Shown here in pieces: positions 10,522-63,601 of a stretch of DNA of 64,000 bases; within the stretch, counting starts at the first letter, position 1; each line of letters opens with the position of its first letter. The notes under the pieces are model-generated. The model did not search any database. It saw nothing but the letters and a program-made list of their open reading frames with translations, and was not told where the DNA came from. Source of the DNA: Malania oleifera (lineage: Eukaryota > Streptophyta > Magnoliopsida > Santalales > Ximeniaceae); NCBI RefSeq assembly GCF_029873635.1, contig NC_080423.1:111617087-111681086 (forward strand), given 5' to 3'. A program made the position numbers and the translations under genes.

Positions 10522-10840
10522 TGTAACGACTCGAAAAATAATGATATTTAAATAATAAAGAGAGAGAGAAATGGAATCAGAAATAGAAGGAGGCAGTAGA
10601 CTTCGTCGACGAATACAGGGATTCGTCGACGAAGGTCTTCCGGATCTCGTCAACGAGGTCCCATTTTGTTGACAAGAAAATACCGAGAGAAGAATGGGCT
10701 ACTCTGAATTTCATCGACGACGGGTAAGGTTCGTCGACGAATTTCCTTAAGGACTCGTCGACGAGATGACGTAGCTCGTCAACGAATCCCGCAGTATAAA
10801 TATCCCTAAAATCATTTTTAATCACAGAATTTCAGCCGAA

Positions 10841-10891
<51 letters not shown>

Positions 10892-12492
10892 CGGCCCCTC
10901 CTCCTTCTTCCTTCGATTTCAGCCCCGTTAGACGCCGGATCGATGATTTGAGGCCACCATGACACTCATAGCAGAGTTCTTTTCAAGTTTGCCAAAGTAG
11001 ATCGTTGGTGAAATAAAGTTGGAATTCACCCCAAATCTAGGGTAAGTTCTTTTATTCAGTTTTTGGCTTCCTAACAGTTGTAAGAAATGATGTAGGCCAA
11101 GAAATATTGATATTTTGTTATGAGATTTATGGTTTTCAGGGTGTTGAGTGGAGAACCCTGCGGGTGTTGGACCCGTTATAGTAGGGGATTTTTAGCAGGA
11201 AACAGGTAAGGGAAATATGCTATGCTAGGTTATTTGAGAATGTTTTCAGTATAAAATTATAAATGTTTCACCAGAGTATTGTTCTACAACAGAGACTTAT
11301 ACAGTTTATCAAGTGTGATTAATATGTTTTAAAATTACTGTGTGGCTTGAGAATATATATATATATATAGTATAGAAACATACTTTACAGTATTTTTCAG
11401 AGAAGTGTTTTACAGAATATACAGATAGTGAATGTATTTTACAGCCATTACAGAAATACCATGATTATACGGTTTTACAGCACCATGACATATAAATTTA
11501 CAATTAATTATAGAAACACAATTGATATAGAGATACAGTTTTCCACAACATCATGGTTTATACAGTTATTACAGAATCATGGTAAAACAAATAGTTGTAT
11601 ATAGAGGTGTATTATATAATATTAGACCCTGTTGGACCATACAGTTACAGAGCACGGTACCGTAACTACATACAGTTTATAGAATGCAACCACCTATTCA
11701 GATAATACGTGGTATAAAGGTCGATCGCATAGAGCCCACGAGTGGATAGGCTCCCCATCAGATATGGGTTGAGGAGGGCTGATGAGACTATGGAGTATAA
11801 TGATTTATTCTTGGTTGGCTAGCCAGGGTAAATCCCGCCTATGTGCCGCACAACCCTGTCATGAAGGGTTAAATCGTGACACACAGTTATCCGTAGGAAA
11901 GTTTACAGTTATTATTATGTTTATACAGCTTTACAGAAACAGAAAATATATATATATATATTAGTAGTATTTTGAATAGAAACCTAACGTACAGAAATGT
12001 TAAACAACAGGTAAAAGATGAAGACTATATTTCTAGTATTGTGCTTATAGATTCAATGATACATGATTATATAGTAATAGATTTTTTCAGTATTGTAGCT
12101 CAATTGCCACATACTAGTAATAACATATTTCGTCTTACTGAACTTTGGCTCATCCCAGTATTGAATTATTTTTCAGGTGAGCCAGTTGGGTGAGCGGATC
12201 GGGCTCGCAGATAGAGAGGTCATAGTACTGCCCTGTCAGAGAGAGTGAGTATATTTTTCGGAGTATTTTTGTATAGCCTCATCGGTTTAGGATATTAGGG
12301 AAACAGTCAAATATGTGTATTTTGGGAAACCTATTAGCACTCTGGTATTGTATATAATTATATATGGATATGTTTATTTGATTTCCGCTTCTTACTGCTT
12401 AGGTTAATGATTGGGTCCAATCCAGTATGGTATCAGAGCATGTTAAATATCATAGTATAAAAAAAACCCCAGTTAAATAGCAGGTCGTTACA
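10522..12492 (+). mobile_element. Solo LTR of a Ty3-gypsy-type element, nested in copia
   Basis: The 1,971-bp insert starts TGTAACGAC and ends GTCGTTACA. It is flanked by a perfect 5-bp duplication CCTCA (10517-10521 and 12493-12497) and interrupts the copia pol frame. TG...CA ends, a 5-bp duplication and the absence of internal genes define a solo LTR, left by LTR-LTR recombination. It contains a TCGTCGACGA array (10603-10785), a TATAAATA box (10795-10802), a CT microsatellite (about 10846-10886) and TACAG-rich degenerate repeats (11390-11600). It is related along its length to the solo LTR at 61627-63673, and at its ends to the gypsy LTRs at 29731 and 37826. Confidence 0.93.
10603..10785 (+). 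promoter_or_regulatory. TCGTCGACGA array in solo LTR 1
   Basis: Eight copies of the palindromic 10-mer or close variants start at 10603, 10623, 10647, 10666, 10711, 10731, 10755 and 10776. The spacings are 20, 24, 19, then 45, then 20, 24, 21. Four copies are exact. The last copy ends 9 nt before the TATAAATA box. The position argues for an upstream activating array of the LTR promoter. Confidence 0.85.
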
Positions 12493-15256
12493 CCTCAAGT
12501 CGAAGAGACACAATTGCAGTTGCTGAAACAAGTACTGATACAAGCTTATGGCACCGTAGACTCGGTCATATAAGTAAGAAAGGGATGAAGATGCTGCTGT
12601 CAAAGGGGAAACTACCGAAATTGAAGTCTGTTGATTTTGATTTGTGTGAAAGTTGCATCTTAGGAAAACAGAAAAGGGTGAGTTTCTTGAAAAGTGGCAG
12701 AATACCGAAAGCTGAAAAATTAGAGTTAGTGCACATAGATTTATGGGGGTCTTCTCCTATTGCATCCCTTGGAGGTTCAAGGTACTACGTTACTTTCATT
12801 GATGACTCAACCAAAAAGGTATGAGTTTATTTTATGAAAAATAAATATGATGTATTTGAAACTTTTAAGAAGTAGAAGGCTATGGTTAAAACAGAGACAG
12901 GTTTGAAAGTAAAGTTTTTAAGGTCGGACAATGGAGGAGAGTACATAGATGGAGGGTTCAGAGAGTATTGTGCTGCACATAGAATTAGAATGGAAAAGAC
13001 CATTCCTAGGACACCACAATAGAATGGTGTGGCTGAGCGCATGAACAGAACTCTTAATGAGCGTGCTAGGAGTATGAGGTTGCATGCTGGACTACCAAAA
13101 ACTTTCTGGGTTGATGCTATTAGTACTGCAGCTTATCTAATAAACCGAGGACCTTCAGTTTCCATGGAGTTCAGACTTCCTAAAGAGGTTTGGAGCGATA
13201 AAGAGGTAGAGTTCTCTCACTTAAAAGTTTTTGGTTGTGTTTCTTATGTTCATATTGATTCTGATGCTCATAGTAAACTTGATGCATTGTCCAAAATATG
13301 CTATTTCATTGGCTATGATGATGATAAATTTGGCTATCGGTTTTGGGATGAACAAAATAGGAAAATCATCAAAAGTAGAAATGTGATATTTAATGAATAG
13401 GTTATGTACAATGACAGGTCAACTGCAGTGTCATATGTCATAACAATAGATAAGAAGAAATCTGAGTTTGTTAACTTAGATGAGTTGATTGAAAGCACTG
13501 TCCAAGAAAGGGGTGAAGATGATAAGGAGAATGTCGAATCACATGCAAATCAGAATACACCTGCAGCTGCGGTCCGTAGATCTTCCAGGACCATTAGACC
13601 TCCACAGCGTTATTAACCTACTCTAAATTTTCTCCTACTAACCGATGGTGGTGAGCCAGAGTGTTATGATGAAACCTTGCAGGATAAAAGTTCAAGCAGG
13701 TGGGAGTTAGCCATGAAGGATGAGATGGATTCCTTGTTGGGGAATCAGACATGGGAACTAACTGAATTTCCAGTAGGGAAGAAGGCTTTGCACAATAAGT
13801 GGGTATACATAATAAAGAACGAACATGATGGTAGCAAGCGCTACAAAGCCATATTGGTTGTCAAAGGGTTCCAGCAAAAGGAGGGCATTGACTTCACAGA
13901 AATATTTTCTCCAGTTGTGAAGATGTTGACAATTAGACTGGTAGTGGGAATGGTGGCTGTAGAAAATCTACATCTTGAGTAGTTAGATGTGAAAACGGCA
14001 TTCCTTCATGGTGACTTGGAGGAAGACATCTATATGATTCATCCAGAAGGGTTCATTGTACAAGGACAAGAGAATTTTGTTTGCAAACTTAGAAAGAGCT
14101 TGTATGGTCTAAAACAAACACCAAGACAGTGGTATAAAAAATTTGATAGTTTTATGCATAAAATTGGGTTCAAGAGATGTGAAACTGATCATTGTTGTTA
14201 TGTTAAGTTCTTTGATAATTCTTACATCATTTTACTGTTATATGTAGATGATATGCTTATTGCAGGGTCTAACATTGAGTAGATTAATAATCTGAAAAAG
14301 CAATTGTCAAAACAGTTTGCAATGAGAATCATTAGAGACAAAACTAATGGTACATTGAAGCTTTCACAGTCAGAGTATGTGAAGAAAATTCTTAGCAGAC
14401 TCAACATGAATGAAGCTAAACCAGTGAGCACACCCTTGGGTAGTCATTTCAAACTGAGCAAGGAATAGTCACCGAAGACAGAAGAAGAAATGGACCATAT
14501 GAGCAAGGCGCCCTATGCCTCAGCTATTGGCAGCTTGATGTATGCTATGGTGTGTACAAGGCCAGACATTGCACATGTAGTGAGAGTTGTGAGCAAATTC
14601 ATGAGTAGGCCAAGAAAGCAGCATTGAGAGGTAGTCAAGTGGATTCTGAGATATCTAAGGGGTTCATTAGATACATGTCTTTGCTTCACAGGTACAAGTT
14701 TGAAACTGCAGGGTTATGTAGACGCTGATTTTGCCGGTGATAATGATAGTAGAAAAAGTACTACTGGCTTTGTATTTACTCTGGGTGGTACAACTATATC
14801 TTGCTTCAAATTTATAAAAGATTGTTACTTTGTCTACTACAGAAGCTGAGTATGTTGCAGCAACTGAAACTGGAAAGGAGATAATTTGACTACATGGTTT
14901 CTTAGACGAATTGGGTAAGAAACAGAAGATGGGCATTCTACACAGTAACAGTCAAAGTGCAATTTTTCTTGCCAAAAATTCGGCTTTTCATTCAAAGTCG
15001 AAATATATATAGACAAAATATCACTTTATCCGTTACCTTATTGAAGATAAGCTGGTAATACTTGAGAAGATCTATGGATCTAAGAACCCGACATACATGT
15101 TGACTAAGGGTGTTACTATTGAGAAGCTGAAGCTGTGTGCAGCTTCAGTTGGTCTTTTAGTTTGAGGACAGGAGGATGAGTTGCAGGGATGAAGGATTTT
15201 CATTTGGAGGATTGCAGTCGATATTGGTGATTGAACTAGTCTCTAAGTGGGAGATT

Positions 15257-15690
15257 TGTTGGGCTTTTGTGGAGCCTAGTTGCGTTAAATCTAGATGATG
15301 ACTCGACTTTTCTTTAATAAGAGATTTCTATCCTAAGGCTTAGTCCATGGAGCGAAGCCGTACTTGTGGGTTGCCCCCCAAAAAATTTTTTGGGCTTGTT
15401 TTGTAGCCCATTTAGAACCTTGTCCGCAGCATATAAAATCATTGTTTTTGGGTGATTAGGGTTGAGCGGTCACACTTCACGAGAGAGCGAGAGAGAGAGA
15501 GTTTTGTATTGCCGCACTCTTTGTATTTTTCTTCCTGATAATGGTGAAATTCCTACAACTCCATGGACGTAGGCAAAATTGTCAAACCACGTAAATACTG
15601 TCTTGTACGTGCGATTGATTTTTTTTTAGCATGTATACTTTCTCTATTTTGTTTCTCATAGGTTTTAGAAATTTGTTGTTAATTCCAATA
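15257..15690 (+). repeat. 3' LTR of the copia element
   Basis: This 434-bp copy starts TGTTGGG and ends CCAATA where the 5' LTR ends CCAACA. It retains the AGCATATAAAATC TATA region, a GA tract near 15483-15500 and the GCCGCACTCT block. It is the more complete of the two LTRs. Confidence 0.9.
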
Positions 15691-17130: not shown

Positions 17131-17352
17131 AGAGCAATTCTAAAGTGACTCACTGACAGTTTTATGGATTAAGGCAAATCAATATTTTAAATATTTAAAA
17201 TATTCAATTGAGTGGATAATCAATTCTTCCATAAATAAATAAAAAAAATTTCATTTTGCCTCTTGCATTATAGCCTTTTAGGCTATTTCATTTCTTAAAA
17301 AATCGGCATTGTTGCTATGGTGCTTGGAAGATAAGGACTAAAGTTAGAATCT

Positions 17353-17660
17353 GTAAGAACTCGACTCGTGAGATAGAGAATAAATAAATAAGAAAAGGGT
17401 AAAACAGTAATTTGAGCAGGCTTTGTTGATGAAGTCAGTGTTTTCGTCGACGAAAACCCTTCTATTGTTTGATGACGAAATGCAGAGGTTTGTCGACGAG
17501 GAGAAGCCAAGAGGTTTTGGGAAATCTTGAAATCTCAGGCTCGTTGACGAATTTATTTCGTTGGCTCATCGACAAAGACGCCGCCTCGTCAACGAGATTG
17601 GCTTGCTCAAAGGTTCTATAAATATTTTTTTCTTTGCTTCTTTTTTAAGATATCAAAATA

Positions 17661-17692
<32 letters not shown>

Positions 17693-19145
17693 ATAACTCG
17701 AAGCTCCATTCTCTCTCTCTAGATTTCTTTGTCGTTCGTCGTTAGAATCGACGAACTGACGTTACTATGAGGATCAGGGAAGGAATCTCTACATGTTTTG
17801 TGGAACGAATCTTCCTTTTGAGGTTTTCGGGTTTTGACCCAAAAATTGAGGTAAGGTTCGGTTTTCATTTCCGTTTCGGTAGATTTGTAGAGAGTAGGAT
17901 TGTAAGTAATTATCATATTGTGATTTATAGGTTTTGGGAACTCGTTTCGCTATTTAGGAGTCGTAGAGTTTGTGTTTGGATTTTCGGGGAAAGGTAAGAG
18001 AATTCTGTTTATATCGATTATTTTTGAAATCATATTCAGTAGAACAGTGGTTTATGATCCTGTGTATGTTTTGACTACTTATTTGGGGAAATCTTATGGG
18101 TAAAAATTATGGGGTTTTCACATTACAGTTTTGGGAAGAGGGGGCATTGGGTTGCATCTCTGGTTTCGTTGGAAAACCGTGAATATATTGTTGAGTATAT
18201 TGTGTTATGGAGATGGTCGTGCCTTGACTTGTTTTAAATTGTATTTTGAAAATCATGATTTTGTGATTACCAAATAAGTGTGGAATGAACTATTTATATG
18301 AATATGCATTGAGTTGTGATTTGCTGAAATTAGATATAGGAACGTGTGTTCCGAATCGTTCCAGGTTGTGAAAGAATGTCTGACTCTATATCTGAGGGTG
18401 TAAAATACCACCTGCCAGTGGCAAGAGTGTCCGGCTCTATATCCAAGGACGTGAAATATCCCCTCTTATCGACTGATCACCGAAGGGCGTGAATCCACCA
18501 GATGTACCGGTACGATGCCATGGGAGCCTGGGGCTACGCCATGTGCCGGGGACACTGTGTAATGCGGGTTGGATTCGCGTCGAAGGGTGTGACAACACCG
18601 GGTTAATTGATCATGTGTGTGTTGATAATTATACTGAAACTGTTTTTGTAAAAATACTGGAAGTGGACTGTGTATGTTTTATGTCATGATAACATTCATA
18701 TGCCACACACTGATATAACCTGATTCTGCCTTACTAAGAGGTGTCTCACCCTTATCGTATGTACATGTTTTTAGGTCGTTCGAGTAACCGGAACTAGTGT
18801 CCTAGTGTTGGGAGCGTGGTGGTTGGTTAATTGCGTAGAGTACTTGTGTAAGTACTTGGACCGTAATAGGGTTGTCGTTTTGGGTATTGCAGGCACCTTG
18901 GGTTATGTTTTGTAATATGGAGCTTAGACTCTATTTGTATAGACTCTGGTATGGTACGATGTATGTATGGAATGAACTTTTCCATGATGTATATGTTGTG
19001 TATGTGAAAGTGTATTCGGTGTACGGGAACCCTACAGGATCGGACCCTCATTCATTATAGTATTATGTGTGTTTTGTATGATATAGGGACGTGTTAGGTT
19101 ACTACATCACACCCTGGATCCCATTACCGAGTTCAGGGCGTGATA
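17353..19145 (+). mobile_element. Solo LTR (gypsy-type) with a TCGTCGACGA array
   Basis: The 1,793-bp block starts TGTAAGAACTCG and ends GCGTGATA (terminal CA probably mutated to TA). It is flanked by a perfect duplication GAATC (17348-17352 and 19146-19150). It has the same architecture as the other solo LTRs: palindrome array, TATAAATA at 17617-17624, a CT microsatellite at 17666-17692, then a long transcribed part. No retroviral genes are present. Confidence 0.85.
17423..17595 (+). promoter_or_regulatory. TCGTCGACGA array in solo LTR 2
   Basis: Copies start at 17423, 17444, 17469 (weak), 17490, 17541, 17566 and 17586, with spacings 21, 25, 21, 51, 25 and 20. Only 17444 is exact; most others differ by C-to-T or G-to-A changes. 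The TATAAATA box starts 21 nt after the last copy. Confidence 0.78.
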
Positions 19146-29100: not shown

Positions 29101-32100
29101 GACTTAACCATATTGGGGACTAGCTATTCTAGTTACGGATACCATACATGAGTAGAATATATATATATGTGTGTGTGTGTTTTAATATCTATAAAATCTT
29201 TAGCCTTTGCTGGCTGGTGGGAGGGGATCAGGCAATTTTTATGTCTTGTATGTGGGGTTAAGGACCCCCCTTGGCCTTACCAATCCCTTACTTTGGCTGT
29301 ACGAAACCTGGGCTATAGGGAGCTTTGCCAAGCCAAACATCATTAGCCTGTGAAACAGACATGCTTATGGTGGAAAATGGAAGGTTGTGAATTGGTGGGT
29401 TGAGGTGATGGATGTGCAGATGTTTGTTGGTGTGTTGTGGTGGGTTATGGTGTCTGTTAGAGGGGATGATGTTTGCTGGTTTGTGTATGCACTAAATGTT
29501 AAGTAAAAATTAAAATTAATTTTGGATTTATTTTTAAATCAAAAAAATTTGATCACTTAATTTTAGGTATTGGCTCCTTTAAGATAAGGAAGGCCACAAT
29601 TGGATTGGGGAATAAGTAAGGAACTTTCTTACTATCAAATTATCAAAAAGTTGAATTTAACAGATTCAAATTTGATATAGATAAGCTCAAATCACATTCC
29701 AAAACAATCTCAATTACATTAAGCGATATGTGTAACGACCTGCTTAATTATCATACATTTTTTTTTTCCTTTTTTTTTAATAAAACCAATATAGTAAATC
29801 CAATAGATCATAATCAACCTGAACCCGTGGGTACTAGAGATACATAAAAAAATAGCACGGAAGCTTAAGCAGCAGGAAACATAAAATCATACACATCATG
29901 TAATACTATGTACCCAACATCACTCATCACAATACCAGAGTTACTACATCCATTGTATTTATATATACATAATACACAACCCAAAAGATGTCCTAGGGTC
30001 ACTTCTCAAAAGTCCATCTGACCCTATCAAAGTACTTACTCCTTTTGAAAGGACAGATCAGCAATAACTATCTCAGCGAAGCTTTATTCGCTCTCCTATC
30101 AGGGGCTCCTGAAATGATCATATAATTTGGGGTGAAACACTTCTCAGTAAGGGAAGATAAACTAATACTAGTGTGTGACAACATAAGTTTTCCGTGTTAT
30201 ACATAAAGCATATATATGCGTATCAAGTAAATATGTCTGTAACATTTCTGGGAAAAATATGTATAATCATAACATGGTAGAACATAATGGATTTTCATAG
30301 CATATTTCATCTCATATAATAATAATAATATGAAAGCAACCCTAATAGGTTAGTTGACTGTTATCATGTATTACCCCCACATGATTAGGTTGTGTGGCTC
30401 GAAGGCTGGACCTGACAATAGTTGGCCGACCACTGCCAAGTTAAAAGTACAGTTTGTAAGTCCAATGGGTCTGCCAGACCTGGTCTGTACACCAGGGGTG
30501 CTCACACTTCTTAAAACCACATCGATTATCCGTCCTCACGCTACTCCGTACAGAAGCATTAACACAATATTGTGATGATCACAAACACATAGCAACGGTA
30601 CCGTGCAAGTGCTAGCCTAAATCAAGCCAACTAGGTTCTGATAACATATAGCATATAATGAAACTGTGATACATAGATATTTCATATTGTTAGTTTCCAA
30701 ATCAATATCATTACATCATTTTGCATATATATATATATACATCATGAATATCATTGGCCCGTACACCGGCATTTCATATTTTACCATAGCTCGGTCCGTA
30801 CATCAGCAAAACATATCCATAGCTTGGCCCGTACGCCGGCAAATCATATCCATAGCTCGACCCGTACGCTGACAAAACATATCCATAGTTCGGTCCGTAC
30901 GCCGGCAAAACATATCCATAACTTGGCCCGTACGCCGGCAAATCATATCTAGGTGTGAGCATAATTCGGTGAAAACCGAATTAACCAGCCGAAATTGGCC
31001 GGTTCGGTTCGGGTAAAAAATCCGGTTCAGTTAAAAATCTACAAATTTTTGGTTAATCAGTTTCGGTTCGGTTAACGGTTAAAAAAATATCGGTTAACCG
31101 AATTACTAATACTTTATATTTTTAATATAATTTATAATAGGGCAGTCGGCGCCGTCGGGCTCGGGCGACTCGGGCTTGGCCGCTTGGGGCCTGGGCCTAG
31201 GGGGAAAAAAAGGCTTCGTGCCTTCGTTCACTTCACACTTCACACAAGCACACTCACGGTCCAGTGTCCACAGACTCATAGATTGGGGATTAGAGTTAGG
31301 GAGTAGGGACTTAGGGTTTCTTACTTACTCAGTTTCTCTGCGCTTTGCCGAGTGCCGATCTGCTCCGCATGGCGCACGCCCGCAGGCCGCAGCTCTCCTG
31401 CCTCTCCATCGGAGTCATCGACTCATCGGACCACCTCTCGGAGAGTCAGAGTCGGCAAATCCCCTCTGGCCTCTTCGTTGTCTTCGAGTCTTCGGCAGCT
31501 CGGCTCTCTAGAGTCCAGCCTCTCGTCTCGGTTCTCAGCGTCTCAGACTCTTGGCCACCAGCTCGCCGTGCAAACCCGGACGGCTGGACCCCAGTAACTC
31601 AGTAAGTCTTCCTCTTCTCCTCCTCCTCGAGTCCTCGGTTCCTCCTCTTCCTCTTCTTCTTCTTCTTCTTCTTCTTCCACTTTTGTATAATAATCAATTT
31701 TAAATAAAATCAGTTAAAATGGTTAACCAAATTACCCGTTCGGGTAATTCGGTCGGGTCCGGTTCGGTTTTTGTGACCAATTTGGTCGGTTCGGTTAATG
31801 CTTTTATTTAACCGAATTTTTCGGTTAATTCGGTTAATTACCCGAATTTGGCCGAACTGACCTTTTGCTCACCCCTAATCATATCCATAGCTCAGCCCAT
31901 ACGCCGGCGAATCATATAAAATTTTTAGCCTGTACGCCGGTTTTTCATTTTAAAAATTCATAATATTATCATGTTCTCAGAAAACAGTAATTCATCATAA
32001 TTTCTACTCATGCCACACAAAATGGGTATTATATATGTCCAAAACATATCATCATTTTTAACAATATTTTCCAACATAATGCATAATCATATATATATAT

Positions 32101-35100
32101 ATATGAACATATATTTTCTAGAAATCAAATATTATAAAATTGTACATATTTTTCATAAAACATCAAGTTTAGTTTATCCCCCTACCTGGTTCTTGAAAAG
32201 TACCTAAGAAAAACAGTCCTGCATCTGCGTTCCCCTTTCAGCACCCTAAAAATGATATTTTTCAGAATTAAACTTCAGTATTTCTACGCATACTACGCTT
32301 TCTACAATTGTCAGAAAGTCAAATATTGAATAGAAAGCCTTACCCTGGATTTGAGATGGATTCCGAATTAGCTCCACCAACGATCTACTCTGACAGATAT
32401 GCAGAGAATTTCCCCAGGAGTGTCGTGGTGATTTCAAATCGTTGAACCGGCACAAGATCGGCTCGAAATCTTAGAGAGAAGTAAGGGAAAACGAAATGAG
32501 GAGAGAGATAGAGACATTCCCGCAGGTTTTTCGGCCATAAAATGAAGGTTAAACCTATTTATACACTGGCCTTCATCGACGAGCCACCTCACCTCGTCGA
32601 CGAAATTCAGAGCCGCACAAATATCCTCTCTGTATCTGCTCGTCGACGAAGCGCACCCTTGTCGACGAGGCCAATATGCCGCGTCGTCGACGAACGCGAA
32701 CTGTGTCCCCTTTTTAATTTCCTTTTCCTCCCTCTTTATTATTTAAATATTATAATTTCTCTGGGTCACTACATTCTCCCTTCCTTATAAAATTTTCTCC
32801 TCGAAATTTGCTATTCATATAACTCATCATCCCTTAAAAGTAAAACGGTCTACTTATTTTATTACTTAACCTCACTTATGGCGGAGGAATACCGTGGTTA
32901 CATTTCAAGTCCTGGGAGATTACATAAATAATATAAAATTCTCCCAAAACTAAAATACCACTTACTAATAAAACTATTACATGTACCTGCAAAAGAAACA
33001 TTACCTAACTACTTACATTTTACCTTGATTAAACTTCTTGAAATAAATGCGGATACTTCTGTCTTATCTGTTCCTCGGACTCTCAAGAGGCCTCTTCTAC
33101 CGCATAATTCCTTCACAAAATTTTTATCAGAGGAATCTTTTTGTTACGTAACTCTTGCACTTTCCTATCCAGAATCTGTACTGGTACCTCCTCATGCACC
33201 CTGAATCACTGAACTCTAATTCATCATAACTAATAATATGAGAAGGGTCTGGGACATATTTTCTCAACATAGATATGTGGAATACATCGTGCATCTTGGA
33301 TAATACAGGTGGTAAAGCTAACCTGTAGGCCCTACTTTGTCTAGAATTTCAAATGGACCGATAAACCTAGGGTTAAGTTTACCCTTCTTTTCAAATCGCA
33401 TAATCCCTTTCAACGGAGCTATCTTAAAAAATACATGATTACCCACATAAAAAATACATGATTACCTACATCAAATTCCAGATTCCTGCGGCGATTATCA
33501 GCATAACTCTTCTGTCGGCTCTGAGCTGCACTATCCTGTATCTGATAAGCCGAATCTATTACACGCTTGCTGAACAAGCTTTGCTGGTCCCACTACTCGC
33601 TACTCGTTGCTCACCCATCTCATCCCAGAATAAAGGAGAACGACATCTCCTACCATACAATGTTTCAAACGATGCCATGCCAATGCTGGTATGATAACTG
33701 TTATTATAAGCAAATTCCACCAGTGACATGAATTGAATCCAACTACCCCCAAAATCTAATACGCATGCTCGGAGTATATCCTCTAATATCTGTATCGTCC
33801 TCTCAGTCTGCCCATCTGATTGAGGATGGAATGCGGTGTTAAATGATAACTGAGACCCTAGAGCTTCTTGCAAGCTCTCCTAAAAATGTGACGTAAAGCG
33901 TCGGTCTCGATTCGACACAATAGATATTGGCACCCCATGTAAACGAACTATCTTTTGAATGTAAATCTCCGCCAATCTTTTGAGAGAGTAGCTGATCTTG
34001 ATAGGTAAGAAATGTGCGGTCTTAGTCAAACGGTCAACAATCACCCAAATGACATTCTGGCCGTGTAACGCCGTCGGCAGTCCTGACACAAAATCCATAG
34101 ATATATGATCCCACTTCCATTCTGGGATAAATAATGGCTATAACTGCCCTACCGGCCTCTGGTGCTCAGCTTTTAACTACTGGCACGTCAAACACTGGGT
34201 TACATACCCGACAATCTCTTTCTTCATACCACTCCACCAGTACGACTCTCGCAGATCCCTATATATTTTCGTACTACCAAGATGAACCGTATATAAAGAT
34301 CTGTGCGCCTCCTCTAAAATAGTCTTTCTGATCTCAGTATTGGCAGGAATGCATAATCTGGAACGGAACCGCAAAACTCCGTCATCTGCAATATTGAATT
34401 CCTCCCTCTGACCACTCTGCACCCTGTCCATCACTTCTACTAATTCTGGGTCTTCCTTCTGAGCAGCTTTAATTCTTTCCTGCAGAGTAGGTTGCACTAC
34501 TAAACTGGCGATACATACCTGAGGATCACCTTCAACTAATTCGATGTCGAGTCTCTTTAGATCTATCATAATCGGATACTGAATCTCCATAGCCGCCAAC
34601 ATTGATTCTCTAGATTTCCTGCTTAACGCATCAGTTATCACATTAGCTTTCCCTGGGTGGTAATTGATAGTGCAGTCAAAATCCTTAATAAGTTCCAACC
34701 ATCTTCTCTACTTTATATTCAGTTTCTTCTGAGTGAAAAAGTATTTTAAACTCTTGTGGTCGGAGAAGATCTCACACCACTTGCCGTATAGGTAATGCCT
34801 CCAAATCTTCAATGCGTGTACAACTGCAGCCAATTCAAGATCATGAGTAGGGTAATTCTTTTCATATTCTTTCAACTGTCTGGAAGCATACGCTACCACC
34901 CTGCCATGCTGCATCAACACACAGTCAAGTTCTTTCAAGGACGCATTATTGTAAATGACATAACCCTCACCCCCTGACGGGATGACCAATACTAGTGCTA
35001 TGACTAATCTCTGCTTCAATTCCTAGAAACTTTGCTCACAGCTGTTGTCCCACTCAAATCTAACATTCTTCCTAGTTAGTTGTGTCAGAGGTCCTGACAA

Positions 35101-38100
35101 TGCTGAGAATCCTTCAACGAAACGACGGTAATACCCAGTTAGCCCCAAAAAACTCTTGATCTCCTGGACGTTCCTCAGTCTAGCCTAATTCATTACCGCC
35201 TCAATCTTACTGGAATCCATAGAAATACCATCTCTAGATATAACATGCCCCAAAAACACGACCTTCTCAAGCCAGAAGTCACATTTACCGAACTTAGCGT
35301 ATAACTTCTTTTCTCGTAGCATTTGTAGAACCTGCCTCAAGTGTGTCTCATGCTCCTCATAGCTCCTCGAATAGACCAGTGCATCATCAATAAAAACAAC
35401 AACAAACTGATCTAAATATGGATGAAAAATCCTATTCATTAAATCCATAAATATAGCAGGAGCATTTGTCAGACCAAATGGCATAACAAGGAATTCGTAA
35501 TACCCGTACCTGATCCTGAAGGCCGTCTTCGAGACGTCTTCTGCTTTCACTTTTACCTGTTGATAGTCGGATCTAAGATCAATTTTCGAATAAACTCGTG
35601 TACCCTAGAGCTGGTCAAACAAATCATCTATACGGGGTAGAGGATACTTGTTCTTGATCGTCACTTTATTAATCTCCTTATAATTTATACACATCCTCAT
35701 AGACCCGTCTTTCTTCTTCACAAATAAAACTAGAGCTCCCCACGGAGATACACTAGGTCGTATAAAGCCCTTATCAAGTAAATCTTGCAACTGATTCTTC
35801 AATTTTGCCAACTCTGCAGGCGCCATTCGGCAAGATACTTTAGAAATCGGCGTTGTACTTGGAAGTAGATCAATAGGAAAATCTATCTTGCGATCAGGTG
35901 GTAAGTCTGGTAACTCATCTGGAAAAACATTTATAAACTCCTTTACCCCGGCGTGCTAGCAAGTTTCAATTCATTCTCTGACATCTCCTTCACAATTGTC
36001 ACAAACCCCTGACAACCACTCAGCAGTAGTCTCCTGGCTTGAATAACTGAAACTAGCTGAGGCGGGGATTGCACTCGCGACCATGAACTTGAATTCTTCT
36101 CGTCTCGGAGGTCTGAATAGCACTTCTCGTGAATGACACTCTATGCTAGAAAAATTAGCTGCTAGTCAATCCATGCTGAAGATCACATCAAACCCATGCA
36201 TATTCAGCACTATTAGATCAGCAGATAAGATTTTTCCCTGAATATCAACTAAACAACCCCAAGTACCCTACTACACCTCACTGCCGACCTAGTCGGTGTA
36301 GATACCAACAACTCAGTATCTAACAACCGTGTTTCTGCCCCACATAGTCTAGCGCACTCCGAAGACACAAACGAGTGTGTAGCTCCTGAATTAAATAATG
36401 TAATAATTTTAAAAGAAAACATAATAACCATACTTGTCACCATGTCACCGGCTGTCTTAGCATCATCTGGCGTTAGAGCGAACATTCTGACTAGAGCCAT
36501 ATTTCTCTGCTGGTCCCCACGTGGCGCCTGATAGTCTCCCCGGTACGGTTTAGGAGCAAGAGCTGCATCTGGTGGTGTAGGGCAGTCTCGCATCATATGT
36601 CCCGGTCTACCACAGCAATAGCAAACAACTCTACCTGCACGACACTCTCCCCAGTGTCTCCTCCCACAAGCCTGACATTTGGAGGGCCTTGCACTACCTG
36701 AACCTCGCGTCCTCCCGTCTCCTGCCTCCGTCCTTTGTCATGGTTTCCTCTCCTCCACTGATTCTGTCTAGGACCCTGTTGGTAGCCCAAAGATGCAGAT
36801 CTCTTCCTCTGCCCCCGTTCTTCTGCATCCAGAAGTTCACCAACCTCTGCCAAGGCTGCTCTGTCGACTATCAGCAAAATCCTGGATCCTTAGCACTACA
36901 ACTTGCTTGAATATATTCCGCCTCAAACCTCTTTCAAACTGCCTCGCTTTTTTCACCTCATCAGGGACAATATACGGAGCGAAGTGAGAGAGTTTTATAA
37001 AACGCGCCGCATACTGCTGGACTGATAATTGTCCCTGCTTCAGACTCAGGAACTCCTCCACTTTAGCCTCCTTGACAGTAGTTGGAAAATATCTATTGAA
37101 GAACAATTCCTTAAACCGATCCCGAGTCATGGCTATCGGCGTAGTCATTTGCTGCTCCAGAAGCCTCATAGCAGTCCACCACCTCTCGGCCTTTCTTGTT
37201 AGTCTATAGGTGGCGAAGAGAACTCTCTGTTCTTCGGTATATTGTAACACGGCCAAAACTTTCTCAGTCTCTTGCATCCAGTTCTCAGCGGCTGCAGGAT
37301 CGACTCCTCCTGAGAATGGCGGAGGATTCATCTTAGTAAATTTTTCTATAGTGCACCCATGGCCTGCCGACAGACCACCCTGCTCCTTGAAGCTCCTGGC
37401 GATTTCAAGCATAACCTGTTGAACCATGCTACGTAATATTGCGTCAGAGTGGGTCCCGCCTGCACTCGAGGGCCCTGCCCCATCATTGCCACTCGCATGG
37501 GCATTATCTCCTCCTGGATCCATCATGAAAACAACAAACATAACTTAGAAATCCTATCCTTGTAATTTACCCACCTAACCTCACCTCTTGTCTTAACCTT
37601 CTCAGCTTATTTCTAACCCAGTCCTACATTTTAGGAACATAACCCGACAATAGTTTACTATGGTTTTCCTGAAATTGTCACTCCAAGAAAAACACAGAAA
37701 TCACCATGGAAGTCCTGCCTCTAGACTGTAGAACAACATCTCAAATCATTTTCCTATACTTTGGTATCGTTTCTGCTGCATTCTAAAGTCTACAGAATCT
37801 AACAACTTAGGCTTTGATACCAAACTGTAACGACCTGCTTAATTATCATACATTTTTTTTTCCTTTTTTTTTTTTAATAAAACCAATATAGTAAATTCAG
37901 CATATCATAATTAACCTAAACTCGTGGGTACCAGGGATATATCAGAAAATAGCACAGAAGCCTAAGCAGCAGGAAACATAAAATCATACACATCATGTAA
38001 TACCATGTACCCAACATCACTCATCACATTACTAGAGTTACTACATCCATTTTATTTATATATACACAATACACAACCCAAAAGATGTCCTAGGGTCACT

Positions 38101-41100
38101 TTTCAAAAGTCTATCTGACCTTATCAAAGTACTTACCCTTTAGAAAGGGCAGATCAGCAATAACTATCTCAGCAGAGCTTTATTCGCTTTCCTATCAGGG
38201 GCTCCTGAAATGATCATATAATTTGGGGTGAGACACCTCTCAATAAAGGAAGATAAACTAATACTAGTGTGTGACAACATGAGTTTTTCGTGTTATACAT
38301 AAAGCATATAAATGCGTATCAAGTAAATATGTCTGTAACATTTCTGGGAAAAATATGTATAATCATAACATGGCAGAACATAATGGATTTTCATAGCATA
38401 TTTTATCTCATATAATAATAATAATACGAAAGCAACCCTAATAGGTTAGTTGACTGTTGTTATGTATTACCCCCACATGATTGGGTTGTGTGGCTTGAAG
38501 GCTGGACCTGACAATAGTTGGCCGACCACTGCCAAGTTAAAAGTACAGTTTGTAAGTCCGATGGGTCTGCCAGACCTGGTCTGTACACCAGGGGTGCTCA
38601 CACTTCTTAAAACCACATCGACTATCCGTCCTCACGCTACTCCGTACAGAAGCATTAACACAATATTGTGATGATCATGAACACATAGCAACGGTACCGT
38701 GCAAGTGTTAGCCTAACCGAGCCAACCAGGTTCTGATAACATATAGCATATAATGAAACTGTGATACATGGATATTTCATATTATTAATTGCCAAATCAA
38801 TATCATCACATCAGTTGGCATATATATATGTACATCAAGAAAATCATTAGCCCGTACACCTGCATTTCATATTTTATCATAGCTCGGTCCGTACGCCGGT
38901 AAAACATATCCATAACTTGACCTGTACGCTGGCAAAATATATCCATAGCTCGGCCTGTACACCGGCAAATCATATTTATAGCTCGGCTTGTACCCCGGAA
39001 AATCATATAAAATTCTCGGCCCGTACGTCAGTTTTTCATTATAAAAATCCATAATATTATCATGTTCACAGAAAATAGTAATTCATCATAATTTCTACTC
39101 ATGCCACACAAAATGGGTATACATATGTCCAAAACATATCATCATTTTTAACAATATTTTCCAACATAATGCATAATCATATATATATATATATATATAT
39201 ATATAAACATATATTTCCCTAAAATCAAATATTATAAAATTATACTTATTTTTCATAAAACATCCAGCTTAGTTTATCCCCTTACTTGGATCCTGAAAAG
39301 CCCCAAAGAAAAACAGTCCTGCACTTGCAGGGTTCCCCGTTCAACATCCAGAAAATGATATTTTCTAGAACTAAACTTTAGTATTTCTGTGCGTATTACG
39401 CTTTCTACAATTGTCAGGAAGTCAAATATTGAGTAGAAAGCCTTACCTTGGATTTGGGATGGATTCCGAATTAGCCCCACCAACGATGTACTCAGGCAGA
39501 TATGCAAAGAACTTCCCCAGGAGTGTCGTGGTGGTTTCAGATCGTCGAACCGGCAGAAGATAGACCCGAAATCTTAGAGAGAAGTAAGGGAAAATGAAAT
39601 GAGGAGAGAGAGAGACATTCCCGCAGGTTTTTTGGCCATAAAATGAAGGTTAAACCTATTTATACACTAGCCTTTGTCGACGAGGTCTAGAAGGTAACTC
39701 GTCGACAAACTCTCCCCCTCGTCGACGAAATTCAGAGCTGCACAAATATCCTCTTGGTATCTTCTTGTTGACAAAGCGCACCCTCGTTGACGAGCCCAAT
39801 ATGCCGCGTCGTCGACGAACGCGAACTGTGTCCCCTTTTTAATTTCCTTTTCCTCCCTCTTCATTATTTAAATATTATAATTTCTCTGGGTCACTACAAT
39901 ATGTCCCAGAAATATAAGTGTGAATCATCTTAGCGCGGAATTAGGATTTTAAATGAAGTTGTCCGAGCCAACTAAGGATTCATACGTATCTATAGTTCTA
40001 ATTCAAATGGCTTCCCAAAAATACTACAGTATCCAAAATCAAAGATGATCATTTAACTTTAATAAATGAAAAGGCCCACTAAAAATAAATTACCAATAGT
40101 GCTTGTAGAGAATACCAATTCAGAATGGGTCATCTCACACAAGTTGTGCGTTCTCATCTGTTAGTCATTAACAGAAATTTAAACATGTATTTAGCTTCCA
40201 CAGGAAATCTGGAATACGACATCTCAGTCTGCTTCTGCTGCTCATTAAAGAAACACAGATATATTTGCTAATGTTCACACATCTAGAGTATAAGCTATAT
40301 GTTTTGCCAACTTTAGGGTCAACAAAAGTTTCACATGCCACCAATTACTTGTCAGCTTCTGAAACAAGCGAAAGTTGTTATTTTTCTTGTTAATATCTTT
40401 TTAAAAATGCATCCTTGTGACAATGCTCAAGTAATGACTTTTTTAGATTCCGCCTTTCATTGAAAAATTAACCATAAAGAGAGCCTCATGCACTCCAAAG
40501 GCTCTTGTTTTTGGGTGCTAACTCTGCGCGGGGCTTCACGTGTGATATAAATGTTTTGCTAGAAATTTGCTTGAAATTCTTTAAATTTTAATTGTCTTGA
40601 CCAGGCCTTTCTAAATGCTAGGCAGTGTATGGTTTGGGCCTTTGGGATTTACTTTTAACCAGGCCCGTCTTTTGTTGAACTTGTTTTTGTGCTGTTGACA
40701 TTGCTATGTAATTACATTACTTTGCTTCTTGGTTTAGATTGTATTCAACTTGGGTTTCTACCTAGGAATATCGCAAAGTGGGTTGCTCCTTTGTGGGACA
40801 TTGGCTTCTTCAAATTCTCTGGATATGTTCATCCTGATGAAGTACTTGCAGCTGCTTTACAAGGAACCAACAGAAAAGTACAACTGATACTATATGTGTC
40901 ACAGGCATGATGTGTGAACCAGTTCTTGGAGTTTGTCTTATATATCTATTGGTTATCGAATTACTTATTGTAGCACATATTTAATAATTTTTTGCATAAG
41001 CATTTACGAACATTATGATGCCCTTTGTGCAGGGGCCTAGTTTTTTAAATATATCAGGTATGTTGCAACCTGAGCATGTATCAGCAATATGCTCACTTGT

Positions 41101-50100: not shown

Positions 50101-53100
50101 AGGTGTGGCTCCTATAGAAGATAAGATAAGGGAGAGACGACTCAGATGGTATGGACACTTGCAATGTAGGCCTTATAGTGCACCTGTGAGGAAGAGTAAC
50201 TTAGTTACTGTGGGGGGCGGTAGAAGGGGTAGGGGTAGACCTAAAATAACTTGGAAAGAGATAGTGAGTAATAGGGGTGAGCATAGTTCGGGGAAAATCG
50301 AATTAACCAATTTAATCGGCCGAAATTGGTCAGTTCGATTCGGGTAAAAAAACCGGTTCGGTCGATTCGGTTGGGCTTCACCAAAATTTGGTGAATCGGG
50401 TTTCGGTTCGGTTAACAGCACATAATTATTCGGTTAATCGATTAACCAATTTATTAATTAATTAAAATTTAAATATAAATTATTATATGTTAATTTGTTA
50501 GGGATGGGGCTCAGCTTGGGGTGGAAAAAGGTGGAGCGGAGGGCTAGGGTTTAATTTGTTTACTGTTTTTGCCTCTGCGCCGCAGCGAAGCTTTGGGTCT
50601 CCCTCCATCGAACCATCTCCATTCTCCACTCCCCACTCGCTCTCTCTCCACACTTTCTCCCATCCCTTTCTCCTCTCTTTTCAGCTTCTCTTTGCGGAGA
50701 CGAGCTTCTGGGATATCCGGTTAAGAGCGGTGCGTTTCAGGCGCACTGGTTAGGGCTTTTCTTTTCTGTTTCGGGCTCTATTTGTGCTGCAAAAATTGTT
50801 CAATTTGAGCGTTTCAGCGACTGATTTGTAGGGTTTTGGGACTTGGGAAGTGTTGGGACTTTGTTCAAAGAACGTTCTCCTGGCGGTGGTTTCTTCAATT
50901 CAGTGGTGTTTGGGTGCTGCAATTCTGTCTGTTGATTTCAAGGTGAAGTTTGGAATTGTAGCTTAATTCTGAGAAATACCTTTCATTTTAGAAGTTCAAA
51001 TTCTTCCAAATATACGTGAATGTGTAGAAAATATTGGAACCAATTTAGAGCTGAAATTATGAAACTGCTGATGCCTTAAATTGTTCTTCAACTGCGTTGG
51101 CATAACATGAATGTTTAGAGGTGGTTGCTTGCTGTCAATGTTTTCTTTTTTAAAAACACAGGAAAAGTTTTTATTAATAAAATTAATAGATAAGGTGTTT
51201 AATTAAGCTGGAATTGGTAAAAATTTTTTATAATTATATTCTATTTTTAGCAATTAATTACAGATAATTCCGGTTAAATTTGGTTAAGGTAATTTGGTCG
51301 GGTTCGGTTCGGAAGTTCGGTCGGTTCTGTTAACATCATTTATTAACCGAAATTTTTGATTAATTCGGTTAATTACCCGAATTTGGCCGAACCGACCATT
51401 TGCTCACCCCTAGTAAGGATTTAATATCCTTGAATCTATCAAAAGAAATGATCCATGATCGCATAAATTGACGGAAAATGATTCATATAGCCGGCCCCAC
51501 TTAGTGGCTAAGGCTTGGTTTTGTTGTTGTTGTTGTTTTTGCTTTTGTCGCTATTATTATTTTTATAATATTTTTTTATTATTCTTATTGTAGTAATTAA
51601 TTATTCTTCCTATAATAATTAGAATTAGAATTAGAATTATAATAATAATAATAATGATTATTATTATTATTATTATTATCTCATCTGCAGTGGTATGGTA
51701 TGGTTAAGCAATGTCAACTAGTGTTTTGAGAATTTATTGTTTAATGTTGATTATAATTGTTTCTGAAATAAGGAGTCAAGAATGGAATCACTGTTCCTGT
51801 CTATAAGAAGAGGAATCACCATTCTATTGCTATAAGAAGAGGAATCACCATTCTATTGAATGGGGCAGTCATCATTCATATAGGAATATGGTTCCATGCT
51901 CATTTTTTGCATCATAATTTTGATTCCATTCCATCCTTTTCTGCAAACCAAACCGCTTTGTGCCTTTTTTCGTTCTTTTTTTTAGCTGAAGGTCAATTCA
52001 TGTCTAATTTATATTTATATATTTATATATTGGCATGTAGGTGAGGCCTTAGTATTTATTATTATTCCTCTATTGTCTTGTCCCAGATTACCCTATCCAC
52101 ATTACAATATATTTTTTCATTTGAATGAGTTGTGTTCCTCTCTCAACAGAAAACGTGGCAAAGGTTACGAACCACTGGCATACTTCACGATGCAATTCCT
52201 CACCCAAATGATAGAGAAGGGTATCCAATGCATGTCAAGGTAGAATTTTTTAAACCTTATCATGTTATTGTCTGATTTTTGGTGGTTGTGTAACTTATTA
52301 AATGGGTTTTCTTAATGTTTGACTATTCATTGAAATTTTAATCTCTGTAGATCTTATTGTGACTTTTGTGGTAACATAGCTGGGTTAGAGAAGTTTTCTT
52401 TTTGTGGAATCCGACTGTTAGTGGTAGTTTTGGGTATTGTAATTGTTTTTTTATTATAAACATTTTTGTGTCATTGTTATGTTGGCATAGTGAGATACTG
52501 GTTCACTGTTTAAACTATAGGGCATTACATTATTGCTCCTTCTAATGATGTCATTGATCAACTGATCCTTTTGACTCAATGGCTAGGATTAATTGCAGGC
52601 AAGACATACAAATATTTCTTTTTTAGCAGAGTACCCAACTTTCATTTTCAGCACAATACCTATCTGAGCAATGACAAACAGGCGTTTGCTTCTTGCACAC
52701 CCTTGCACACAATGGGGTTGGTTTCTTGGTGGAAGTCATCCTTCTTTTCTTTTTTTTCAGAAATTTATTGTAGAAAGCACATACATATCAAATGAAAACA
52801 ATACCGTCTTAAACCTATTTTTCTCAGAAAGATGTCTTGTTTGGCTTCATGTCAAGACTACAAAAAATTGTGGTTTGGGTAGGGGGCGGGGACGGGGGGA
52901 GATATTTCTGCATATAGATGAGTACAGAACTTAATTTTGAACTTTCTAACGTCACTTTCAAACTCAAAGTGGTTCTGTAGACTTTTCACTGCTTCATGCT
53001 CCAAGATGTGGGAAGCTAGGATTATTCCCATGATAATGTTATTGAGAAGGCATGCATCGTACATAGATAATCATATCCGTAAAATTTTACCATGATTGCT

Positions 53101-55674: not shown

Positions 55675-55778
55675 TGTTTGACTTTTCTACCAATTGCAAA
55701 ATAAGAGGAATAATAAGAAATTAAAATGTTTGACTTTTATACCAATTGCAGAATAAGAGGAATGATAAGAAATTAAAA
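55675..55778. repeat. 52-bp tandem duplication
   Basis: Two copies with three differences (55675-55726 and 55727-55778), each starting TGTTTGACTTTT and ending AAGAAATTAAAA. Confidence 0.88.
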
Positions 55779-58908: not shown

Positions 58909-58984
<76 letters not shown>

Positions 58985-60384: not shown

Positions 60385-60420
<36 letters not shown>

Positions 60421-61235: not shown

Positions 61236-61329
61236 TGTTATTTTTCACTCTTATACTTTTATTTTTATAAGTAAAGAAAGAAAGAATGAAAAAAAAATAA
61301 AAAAAATGAAGGGGGCAGCACAACAGGAC

Positions 61330-61477
61330 TCATCGACGAGAGAACAACATAGGTTTGTCGACGAACAATTATCGAGAGTAGGAATTTTCAGATTTCTGAC
61401 ATCGTCGACGAGAGTCCTGTATTCATCGATGAAGGGTCCTCTTGGTCTCGTCGACGAACACAGGGCCTCGTCGACCA
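61330..61477 (+). promoter_or_regulatory. TCGTCGACGA array in the copia LTR
   Basis: Copies start at 61330, 61355, 61402, 61423, 61448 and 61468 (spacings 25, 47, 21, 25, 20). 61402 and 61448 are exact. The grammar matches the gypsy-type LTRs, but the nearest TATA-like sequence (CTATATATG, about 61568) is some 90 bp downstream and not 9 nt. Confidence 0.75.
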
Positions 61478-61626
61478 GAAGTGTTTGGGTTGCGGTAGTT
61501 TTTCTGAATTTTAAATTTTTAAACGTTGAGTGGTTGGGCAAACGGGGGGAAACCTCTTATGAACTTCTATATATGTCATCTGTGCATATTTTGAAAGGAG
61601 AGATGATCATTAGAGAAGTATATTGT

Positions 61627-63601
61627 TGTAATGACCCGAAGAATAATGCTATTTAAATAATAAAGAGGGAGAGAAATGGAAACAGAAATAGAAGGAGGCA
61701 GCAAGCTTCGTCGACGACGTTGCACTTTGGATGTAATAACCTAGAAGATTTACACAAAGCTTCGTCGACGAACAAAGGAAGTTTGTCGACAAGCGCATAA
61801 GGAGACCTCAACGACAAAACCATGTCTTGTCGACGAGAAGATACTGAAAGGGGTTTTGGGCAGTTTGAAATTCGTTGACGAGGAAGTAAGGTTTGTCGAA
61901 GAAATTACTTAAGGACTCGTCAACGAGATGACGTGTCTCATCGACGAATCCGACTCTATAAATAGTGAAAACCCAAATTTTTTATGAGAATTCAGTGCAA
62001 GAAACCTCCTTTCTCTCTCTAAACGCCTCACCCTCCTTCTCTCTTCGATCCCGGCACCGTTTCATGCCAGATCGACGATCTGAAGCCACCATAATGCTTT
62101 TGGCGAAGTTTTCTGCAAGTCTGTCAGAGCGGATCATCGATGGAAGATGTTTGAAATTCGTCACAAATTCAGGGTAAGGTGTTTTGTTCAAAATATGCTT
62201 TCTCTACAGTTATAAAAAATTTTGGATGCAGAAAAATACTGATGTTTTGTTATGAGAAATGTCGTTTTCAGGATTTTGAGTGGAGAACCTTGCAGATATA
62301 GGGATAAAGTATAGTAGAGACTTTTCAGAGATAAGGTAAGGGAAATATGTTATGCTAGGAGATTCATTTATGTTATCAGAAATTTTATACATTTATATAT
62401 ATGCATGTCTACTAGTTATATTATAGAATATGAATTTTTATAAGTATGTGTGGCCAGAGTAGATATTACTTGATATGAAGTTTTGTACAGTTTTCAATAT
62501 AGCAAGCTATACAGATATAGTTAGATATTTACATATTTTTATATAGATCGAATATGTATACATATACAGTTTTACTCAGATGATTACACAGACAGATATT
62601 TAACAGTATACAGATAGAACAGTATATACATTGTATATAGAAAGCTATGTTTTCCTAAATGTCATAACACTCAGAGAGTACAGATAGATTATACAGATAG
62701 AAAGTACAGACAGAATATACAGTTATAGCATCAAGATAGTACAGACATTACAGAATTTACAGTACAGAGTTATGGTATTATGGTTATTTTGGAAACATAG
62801 TGAAAATAATATAAAGAGTATATATATAGTACAGATACAGAATATAGAGTACGGTACCGTTGCTAATACAGATAGAGTGCAACCACATATCTTAGATAGT
62901 GTGTGGGTATTGTCAACCGTGCTTAAAGAGTTTGCAGCTCCCCAGTTCCCTGGGTTGAGGGGGCTAGTTTGACGAGGTAGCAGCCAGTCCCTAGCTTAGG
63001 AGTGAATGTAGTTTGGCCGAGCTGAGGTAGTGTAGAGTATAGTGACTTATCTGGAGGGCCGACCAGATTAAGTCCCGCCTACGAGCCGCACAACCCTGTC
63101 ATGAGGGGTCAAATCATGACATACAAAGATCTAGGGATAAAACACAGTTATGTATATGTATACCGTTTTACAACTTTTGTATATGTAGTATGATATTAGC
63201 AGTACGAATGATAGAAAGTTCAGAAGATACAAATATTTTAAGCTACTATATACGTGATATATGTGTTTTATAGATTTTCCAGAGCATGCAGTTTCAATTA
63301 TTAATATTATAGTTCGGTTGTCACACACTAGCAATAACATATTTCCACTTATTGAGCGTCTTCTCACCCCATTACTTTATCATTTTTCAGGTGAGCCAGC
63401 TAGGCGAGCAGATCAGGCTCGCGGATAGGGAGTTTATTTGATTACCCTGATTGTAGGGTGAGTTTATGACAGAATTTTGGTATTTTTGGGGTAGAAGATA
63501 TTGGAGGTAATTATTTTGCATGGCTATGGTCTGTATATACTGGATTCTGATATTGTATAGTATATATGGTTGTATGATTTATGTTTCCACTGCTTAGGTA
63601 T

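Follow-up and report, generated by a model that had tools for sequence, protein, structure and literature searches.

Arrays of a CpG-rich palindrome with nearly fixed spacing upstream of the TATA box in Ty3-type and Ty1/copia long terminal repeats of Malania oleifera

In a 64-kb stretch of the Malania oleifera genome (contig C7, positions 111,617,087 to 111,681,086 of a 1.494-Gb genome; this whole stretch is called the window here), the long terminal repeats (LTRs) of several retrotransposons carry arrays of a 10-bp palindrome, TCGTCGACGA, at intervals that recur from one LTR to the next. The question raised by the locus is whether this regularity belongs to a promoter module with a geometry of its own or is what remains of an inherited repeat. 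Our reading of the sequence, to which we give a probability of about 0.6, is that the palindromes form an activating array in the U3 region of the LTR, recognised by a host DNA-binding protein and constrained in its geometry.

Abundance of the palindrome and sampling of arrays

All six arrays that had been predicted in the window are real, and their positions, given below with the elements that carry them, were right. Motif matches with at most one mismatch number 32 in the 64 kb, compared with 0.23 expected from 100 dinucleotide shuffles, and 37 of the 39 matches in which each of the three CpGs reads CG, TG or CA lie inside the six arrays, which together measure 1,010 bp. Genome-wide, the exact palindrome occurs in 132,361 copies, its reversed word in 1,383 and a control palindrome of the same letters with three CpGs, TCGACGTCGA, in 433.

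Two further sets of loci were added to the window. Twenty evenly placed 10-kb stretches on contigs C1 and C7 served as one sample; all 15 exact sites in them fall within 10 arrays, and ten arrays per 200 kb sampled extrapolate to tens of thousands of natural copies. The other set came from the first 100 places listed on C1, which make up 44 clusters: 40 loci were taken, three clusters were covered by L041-L048, and a single-site cluster (C1:685593, just beyond L090) was left out. Loci L042, L043 and L045-L047 were excluded because they overlap L041 or L044, and L073 and L074 because they hold fewer than three sites. The resulting 58 arrays include 57 that were oriented, 38 from a TATA-like word nearby and 19 from the likeness of their flanks, and one, L051_188, that was not orientable. 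Orientation by TATA word and by flank agreed in 447 of 459 checked pairs, with L058_4451 involved in 7 of the 12 conflicts. Ten of the 57 arrays are unclassified as to context. The number of recognised sites per array ranges from 4 to 11, and the full eight-site layout (four sites, a gap, four sites) is seen in 20 of the 57 oriented arrays.

Spacing of the sites

Adjacent spacings in the oriented arrays, 369 in all, fall into discrete classes: 190 are short (19-22 bp), none is 23 bp, 95 are long (24-25 bp), 50 measure 44-48 bp, and the other 34 are scattered. Isolated four-site blocks read short-long-short in 64 of 66 cases, the remaining two, both in L056, being short-short-short, and short and long spacings alternate in 164 of 170 neighbouring steps. 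Between neighbouring exact sites in the 100 C1 places, spacings of 19 bp were found twice, those of 20, 21 and 24 bp six times each, and 23 bp never. The original prediction had described a recurring pattern of 19-21, 24-25 and 45-51 bp, and this holds, with 20-24-19/45/20-24-21 in the array at 10603. Its string for the array at 61708 (54, then 21-25-19/45/21-24-21) is correct only if TCAACGACAA at 61808, which has three mismatches, is counted as a site; otherwise the array reads 54-21-44-45-21-24-21. A preference for certain spacings across the genome had been set beforehand as the observation to look for, and it is present in the 57 oriented arrays sampled. Three expanded arrays (L087:356-638, L103:401-667 and L104:401-688) contain a six-site block alternating 21-25-19/20-24-21, which suggests that blocks grow by the same short/long alternation.

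Measured from the site nearest the TATA box, the mean positions of the sites in the 20 arrays of canonical eight-site form are 0, 20.7, 44.9, 64.9, 111.6, 131.7, 156.2 and 176.6 bp. With 10.5 bp per turn, the helical phases of the four pairs are about 0/350, 99/65, 228/195 and 314/295 degrees. The proposal that dimers on all the sites face the same way is sound within the 19-22 bp pairs, which are nearly in phase, and fails across the array, where each of the four pairs points in its own direction.

Motif, spacers and CpG decay

In units of one spacing, the motif columns carry 1.50-1.61 bits of information, a value inflated by choosing sites on motif match, and the spacer columns, which are unaffected by that choice, carry 0.36-0.62 bits. 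The spacer is thus less conserved than the motif, as had been claimed for the window. A minisatellite in which the spacer is as conserved as the motif, named at the outset as the alternative to watch for, was rejected because the spacers are far less conserved and the whole unit is not repeated; a tandem-repeat finder run on the window reported none of the six arrays. Inverted duplication of blocks left no sign either, since spacers compared with reverse complements score 0.24, 0.33 and 0.27 within arrays and 0.23, 0.31 and 0.29 between them.

The 404 sites recognised with at most two mismatches contain 330 substitutions that are C-to-T or G-to-A at CpGs and 54 of all other kinds. The non-CpG letters T1, T4, A7 and A10 are retained in 394-402 of these sites, a figure that includes the effect of choosing sites by the two-mismatch limit. 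The ratio of observed to expected CpG, 3.19 in the sites, falls to 0.46 in the spacers and stands at 0.71 in the flanking sequence (up to 300 bp). Because the substitutions are mostly of the CpG type, the ancestral site was most simply a perfect palindrome, its variants being for the most part the probable residue of methylated CpGs; an account of them as near variants of the motif was correct as far as it went and missed this decay.

The spacers have features of their own. Near the middle of the 14-15 bp long spacers of the 57 arrays, CTT or CTTC is often found (TTCT in 27 of 95, CTTC in 26 of 95), possibly a third, weak site. ACGTG or TGACG occurs in 20 of 49 TATA-proximal short spacers, compared with 25 of 190 of all short spacers, and we take it to be a possible bZIP site.

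The inter-block box and the position of the TATA box

The array had been placed upstream in the LTR, and it does lie in U3, directly upstream of the TATA box. The distance between the two is specific to the family of carriers (described in the next section): 9, 11 or 19-21 bp in the Ty3 Tekay-type arrays where a TATA was found, and about 90-97 bp in copia arrays and those of a family called E.

The gap between the two blocks might have arisen by loss of a site. However, 37 of 50 gaps of 43-48 bp contain no site-like word (at most five mismatches) and 13 contain one; when gaps of 43-52 bp were admitted and the rule for a site was tightened, 51 of 63 proved empty and 12 held a decayed palindrome. 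Since most gaps have no such word, we rejected site loss and regard the gap as mostly a true feature. In the 51 site-free gaps, the first letters past the fourth palindrome tend to resemble GAAAATACCGAGAG, a second conserved box that was missing from the earlier description of the gap as an interval of 45-51 bp. Mean matches to its 14 positions are 11.3 in Tekay-type gaps (n=35; four score 5-8), a partly circular figure because the box was read from these same sequences, and 11.1 in unclassified gaps (n=8); the values of 11.7 for copia (n=3) and 8.2 for E (n=5, one of which scores 3) are less circular. By comparison, the 12 gaps that hold a decayed site average 4.8 of 14, and random positions about 4.

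Two superfamilies of carriers

Most carriers that could be typed are of Ty3 type. The Ty3 element of the window (29731..39898, minus strand) has two LTRs, broken open frames and the target-site duplication (TSD) ATATG. Its domains are gag (36840-37544), RVP_2 (36252-36737), RVT_1 (35188-35604), RT_RNaseH (34711-35022) and Integrase_H2C2 (34180-34707), giving the Ty3 order of protease, reverse transcriptase, RNaseH and integrase. A chromodomain was looked for in the frame at 33562-33879, after the integrase, and no domain match was found there; in L064, SH3_Tf2-1 was matched at 3.7e-26 and Chromo, below threshold, at 0.0032. Matches to the Ty3 pieces of the window lie beside the arrays of L049, L050, L058 and L064. 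The lineage name Tekay-type is our assumption, made from the LTR ends and from the length of the LTRs.

Five arrays (window 61330, L050_57, L083, L097 and L098) are found in LTRs of another kind, which begin about TGTTATTTGTGGCTCTTATAC. These LTRs follow a copia RNaseH end and the tract CCAAGGTGGAGAT in L050, L083 and L098; in the short L083 and L098 pieces, where Pfam gave no match, the RNaseH end and the order were recognised by eye. L050 has copia matches at 830-1991, with RVT_2 at 2.1e-28. The LTRs in L097 and L098, both array-bearing, flank a region (L109) and are 81.2% identical over 585 bp. Between them lie Retrotran_gag_2 (1.3e-28), gag_pre-integrs (1.6e-11), SH3_retrovirus (2.1e-14) and then RVT_2 (1.6e-61), so that a copia gag and integrase-side domains precede RVT_2 in the Ty1/copia order.

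The copia arrays retain the short-long-short blocks, and the three scored gaps retain the box (10, 12 and 13 of 14). When proximal blocks of the Tekay-A and copia-D families are compared, spacer identity is 0.31, compared with 0.28 for shuffled spacers (110 pairs), and yet 324 of 330 slot lengths (98%) differ by at most one base, 114 being equal and 210 differing by one. The same arrangement of sites, with near-chance similarity of spacers, is found in the promoters of two superfamilies, and the tens of thousands of copies extrapolated above would make up a natural experiment on enhancer spacing on a large scale.

A third LTR-like family, E, has the same palindrome and was seen at L056:4320-4575, L070:221-522 and L099:355-636; the TATA is 97 bp away in L056 and L099. 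The 3.9 kb before L099 gave no match to the copia or Ty3 pieces of the window, and a Ty3-type integrase end in the 4.0 kb after it is not assignable to E.

Is the geometry constrained?

We compared the retention of slot lengths with a neutral expectation. Outside the arrays, three LTR pairs differ by 12 insertions or deletions (indels; those in microsatellites left out) and 282 substitutions. In a simulation at this measured ratio, run until spacers were 0.30 identical, 66% of slots stayed within one base; the value rises to 81% at half the ratio and 92% at one fifth, and the observed value is 98%. Within their arrays the same pairs differ by 3 indels and 37 substitutions, which shows that an inserted array is not exempt from indels. 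Together with retention of the layout across two superfamilies, the comparison favours, with limits, a constraint on the spacing. The original prediction of an upstream activating array with selected geometry therefore gains from the U3 position, from spacing that extends beyond the window and from the contrast between spacer and motif, is upheld within those limits as to selection, and loses the common face for all dimers.

Several results weigh against this reading. The null comparison uses 12 indels and pairs of arrays that share ancestors and are not independent. Spacers are alike within a family (0.58 in Tekay A), and part of the regularity is therefore descent. The spacing is not absolute: 105 exact site pairs 23 bp apart exist genome-wide, L056 has blocks of 21-21-21, and by eye about 20 of 50 plus-strand 23-bp places listed carry one spacer type, which means that a 23-bp lineage has multiplied. 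A whole-region alignment showed no clear difference in gaps per 100 bp between arrays (4.4-5.6) and flanks (4.7-5.6) in its three best-filled bins; we judged it uninformative, since gaps also arise where unlike sequences are aligned leniently and where sites are missing, and it still lends no support to constraint. Finally, a literature search for the 8-mer core with plant terms identified no binding protein, the matches listed being unrelated; in one of them, PMC3462685, the matching passages are SalI primers. The 23-bp lineage, off-pattern and yet multiplied, is in itself a natural test of the spacing rule.

A proposed mechanism and its rivals

We propose that the array serves as the upstream activator of the LTR promoter. 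In the standard layout, as many as eight sites would be occupied by a sequence-specific host protein, which is probably dimeric because each site is a perfect 10-bp palindrome. A spacing of 20-21 bp, or two helical turns, would join two sites into a cooperating pair, one of 24-25 bp would join two pairs into a four-site block, and a block on either side would flank the second box, which may serve a second factor. The assembled complex would drive transcription from the downstream TATA at the distance typical of the family. Elements that lose the array spacing or the motif would be copied less, and on this proposal spacing and motif persist for that reason while the spacers drift. Inserted copies would be CpG-methylated, and the three CpGs of each site would decay to TpG or CpA.

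An unlikely alternative, and one that several of the above results fit, is descent without geometric selection, in which a 45-bp ancestral tandem repeat, made of two palindromes and spacers of 10 and 14-15 bp, was duplicated into an array and inherited, and the arrays look fixed because indels are rare and the families young. Spacers of the two blocks of one array resemble each other a little more than spacers from different arrays do (0.48/0.39, 0.40/0.36 and 0.43/0.39), and the low indel count of the LTR pairs, the multiplied 23-bp lineage and the similar gap rates of arrays and flanks also agree with it. Plain descent does not, however, produce the contrast in information between motif and spacer; arrays accept indels after insertion, and the Tekay and copia spacers are near chance although their slot lengths agree far more often than under the measured null. 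It is less likely again that the element works at the level of RNA or silencing, with palindromes that pair in the transcript, which has U3 at its 3' end, and act as a source or target of small RNAs or as an RNA signal in place of a protein-binding enhancer. Array RNA folds better than shuffled sequence (mean z -3.48, n=53; 44 of 53 below -2), unlike equal-length downstream controls (mean z +0.21, n=52; 3 of 52 below -2), and this too tells against an activator; because any palindrome array folds well, the z-score is not independent evidence. The motif CpGs decay like methylated CpGs, and maize Sirevirus palindromes are described as small-RNA hotspots in the available text of PMC5311732 and PMC10760457. 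Against an RNA role stand the tie to the TATA box and the retention of a motif that silencing would select against. The two roles may coexist, by analogy with what the accessible part of PMC10760457 proposes for maize Sireviruses.

Very improbable, to our minds, is a methylation-dependent or insulating element, in which a CpG-rich stretch with three CpGs per site would recruit or repel methyl-CpG readers and no sequence-specific activator would take part. It would account for the CpG excess in the motif, and CpG islands just upstream of the TATA box are described for Sirevirus and monocot Del LTRs (PMC2829016, PMC4029996). A mere CpG island needs neither an exact word nor a spacing, though, and here T1, T4, A7 and A10 are kept, the composition-matched palindrome is rare and the spacers are CpG-poor. 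We also rejected a phage or virus origin: a two-site pattern matched 40 IMG/VR stretches, with distances of 18, 21, 24 or 27 bp between the paired sites and a GC content of 58-75% in 39 of the loci. As these distances are all multiples of three and the loci GC-rich, we read the matches as a coding coincidence.

A more tentative reading, which we hold as possible and not as probable, is that one module of eight palindromes, short-long-short blocks and a central box is common to Ty1/copia and Ty3 elements of this genome, through U3 recombination between the superfamilies or independent rebuilding, and that a single host complex recognises it and dictates the spacing by its own geometry. Were this true, unrelated elements would be rivals for one host signal or would respond to it in concert. 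The arrays raise the question whether promoters pass from one retrotransposon superfamily to another, allow the effect of spacing on a promoter to be tested in a concrete case, and provide a handle for finding the host factor behind very abundant LTR elements.

Relation to known LTR motifs

No earlier description had been named for such arrays. A close precedent does exist in the palindromic repeated motifs (RM boxes) of Sirevirus LTRs (Bousios et al. 2010, PMC2829016), which according to the available text are short CpG-forming palindromes, at least eight per element, in the upper LTR a short distance upstream of the TATA box, with divergent flanks. The arrays here are alike in repeating CpG-forming palindromes upstream of a TATA with divergent flanks, in the eight-site layout of 20 of 57 arrays and, for the Vitis motif CGGTCGACCG, in the central GTCGAC that it shares with TCGTCGACGA. 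They differ in that the accessible part of PMC2829016 gives all RM boxes except one a CGG-CCG core, a core that the motif here lacks, names Ty1/copia Sireviruses as carriers, whereas here the main carriers are Ty3 Tekay-type elements with one Ty1/copia family, and describes no fixed spacing pattern, whereas here the spacing is nearly fixed and a second box lies between the blocks.

The 5' CpG islands of Del/Tekay LTRs (Cruz et al. 2014, PMC4029996) are a second point of comparison, in the same Ty3 lineage by name and likewise a CpG-rich stretch in the 5' part of the LTR. As far as the available text goes, these islands are variable in length and weakly conserved, and in the cluster to which all eudicot elements belong, lack of an island prevails; that text gives no motif or spacing, whereas here CpG is concentrated in a fixed motif with a fixed layout. 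The U3 elements of Tnt1 and retroviruses, in the accessible part of PMC3601003, are tandem repeats of various sizes, whereas here the 10-bp palindrome alone repeats and the spacers do not. Among the matches listed for the exact 10-mer, none concerned plant LTRs by title. We found no earlier description of the motif, the fixed spacing, the central box or the sharing between Ty3 and Ty1/copia elements in the literature searched, which mostly excludes subscription literature.

Arrays and other features of the window

The six arrays, first assigned to six LTRs of one kind, belong to five insertions, because those at 32573 and 39674 sit in the two LTRs of one element, and the LTR at 61330 is Ty1/copia. 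A solo Tekay-type LTR on the plus strand (10522..12492, TSD CCTCA on both sides) lies inside a Ty1/copia element; its array (10603..10785, plus) has eight palindromes, the box GAAAATACCGAGAG at 10676..10689 (plus), immediately 3' of the fourth palindrome, and TATAAATA beginning 9 bp downstream. The host element, at 8962-15690, has LTRs of another type, no array of its own and stops in its frames. A candidate solo Tekay-type LTR at 17352..19036 (plus; TSD GAATC/GGATC, 4 of 5) carries an array at 17423..17595 (plus) with six recognised sites spaced 21-46-51-25-20, a TATA that begins 21 bp downstream and a diverged box, GGAGAAGCCAAGAG (9 of 14), at 17500..17513 (plus).

In the Ty3 Tekay-type element, both arrays are on the minus strand with the TATA 9 bp downstream. 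That of the 3' LTR (32573..32693) has five recognised sites, 25-19-46-21 in element orientation, and the box GCAGATACAGAGAG at 32626..32639 (minus); that of the 5' LTR (39674..39818) has six, 25-19-46-20-25, and the box GAAGATACCAAGAG at 39751..39764 (minus).

The remaining two arrays are nested. The first part of a Ty1/copia 5' LTR (61236..61626, plus), with the start TGTTATTTTTCACTC, resembles by eye the LTR starts beside copia pol in L050, L083 and L098, and is broken at 61627 by a solo Tekay-type LTR that landed in it (61627..63673, plus; TSD ATTGT/TTTGT, 4 of 5). The copia array (61330..61477, plus) has six sites, 25-47-21-25-20, with the box ACAATTATCGAGAG at 61365..61378 (plus), which matches GAAAATACCGAGAG in 10 of 14 positions. 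The array of the inserted LTR (61708..61947, plus) has eight recognised sites besides the three-mismatch site at 61808, a TATA 9 bp downstream and the box GAAGATACTGAAAG at 61837..61850 (plus). Downstream of the copia LTR, TTGGTATCAGAGC at 63861 is presumably the copia primer-binding site. The likeness of the LTR start to those of L050, L083 and L098 and the position before TTGGTATCAGAGC are the grounds on which the array at 61330 is assigned, provisionally, to copia.

The 3' LTR of the Tekay-type element contains an insertion at about 30950-31880, ending TGCTCACCCCTA, whose GC-rich central part might derive from a captured gene. Similar ends are found at about 43893-43989 and 51316-51412 (window repeat family D8), and the insertion has the look of a non-autonomous DNA transposon. 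Both LTRs of the same element also carry, downstream of the promoter, a 33-bp tandem repeat (GTACGCCGGCAAAACATATCCATAGCTCGGCCC-like) at 30754-30949 and 38881-39026.

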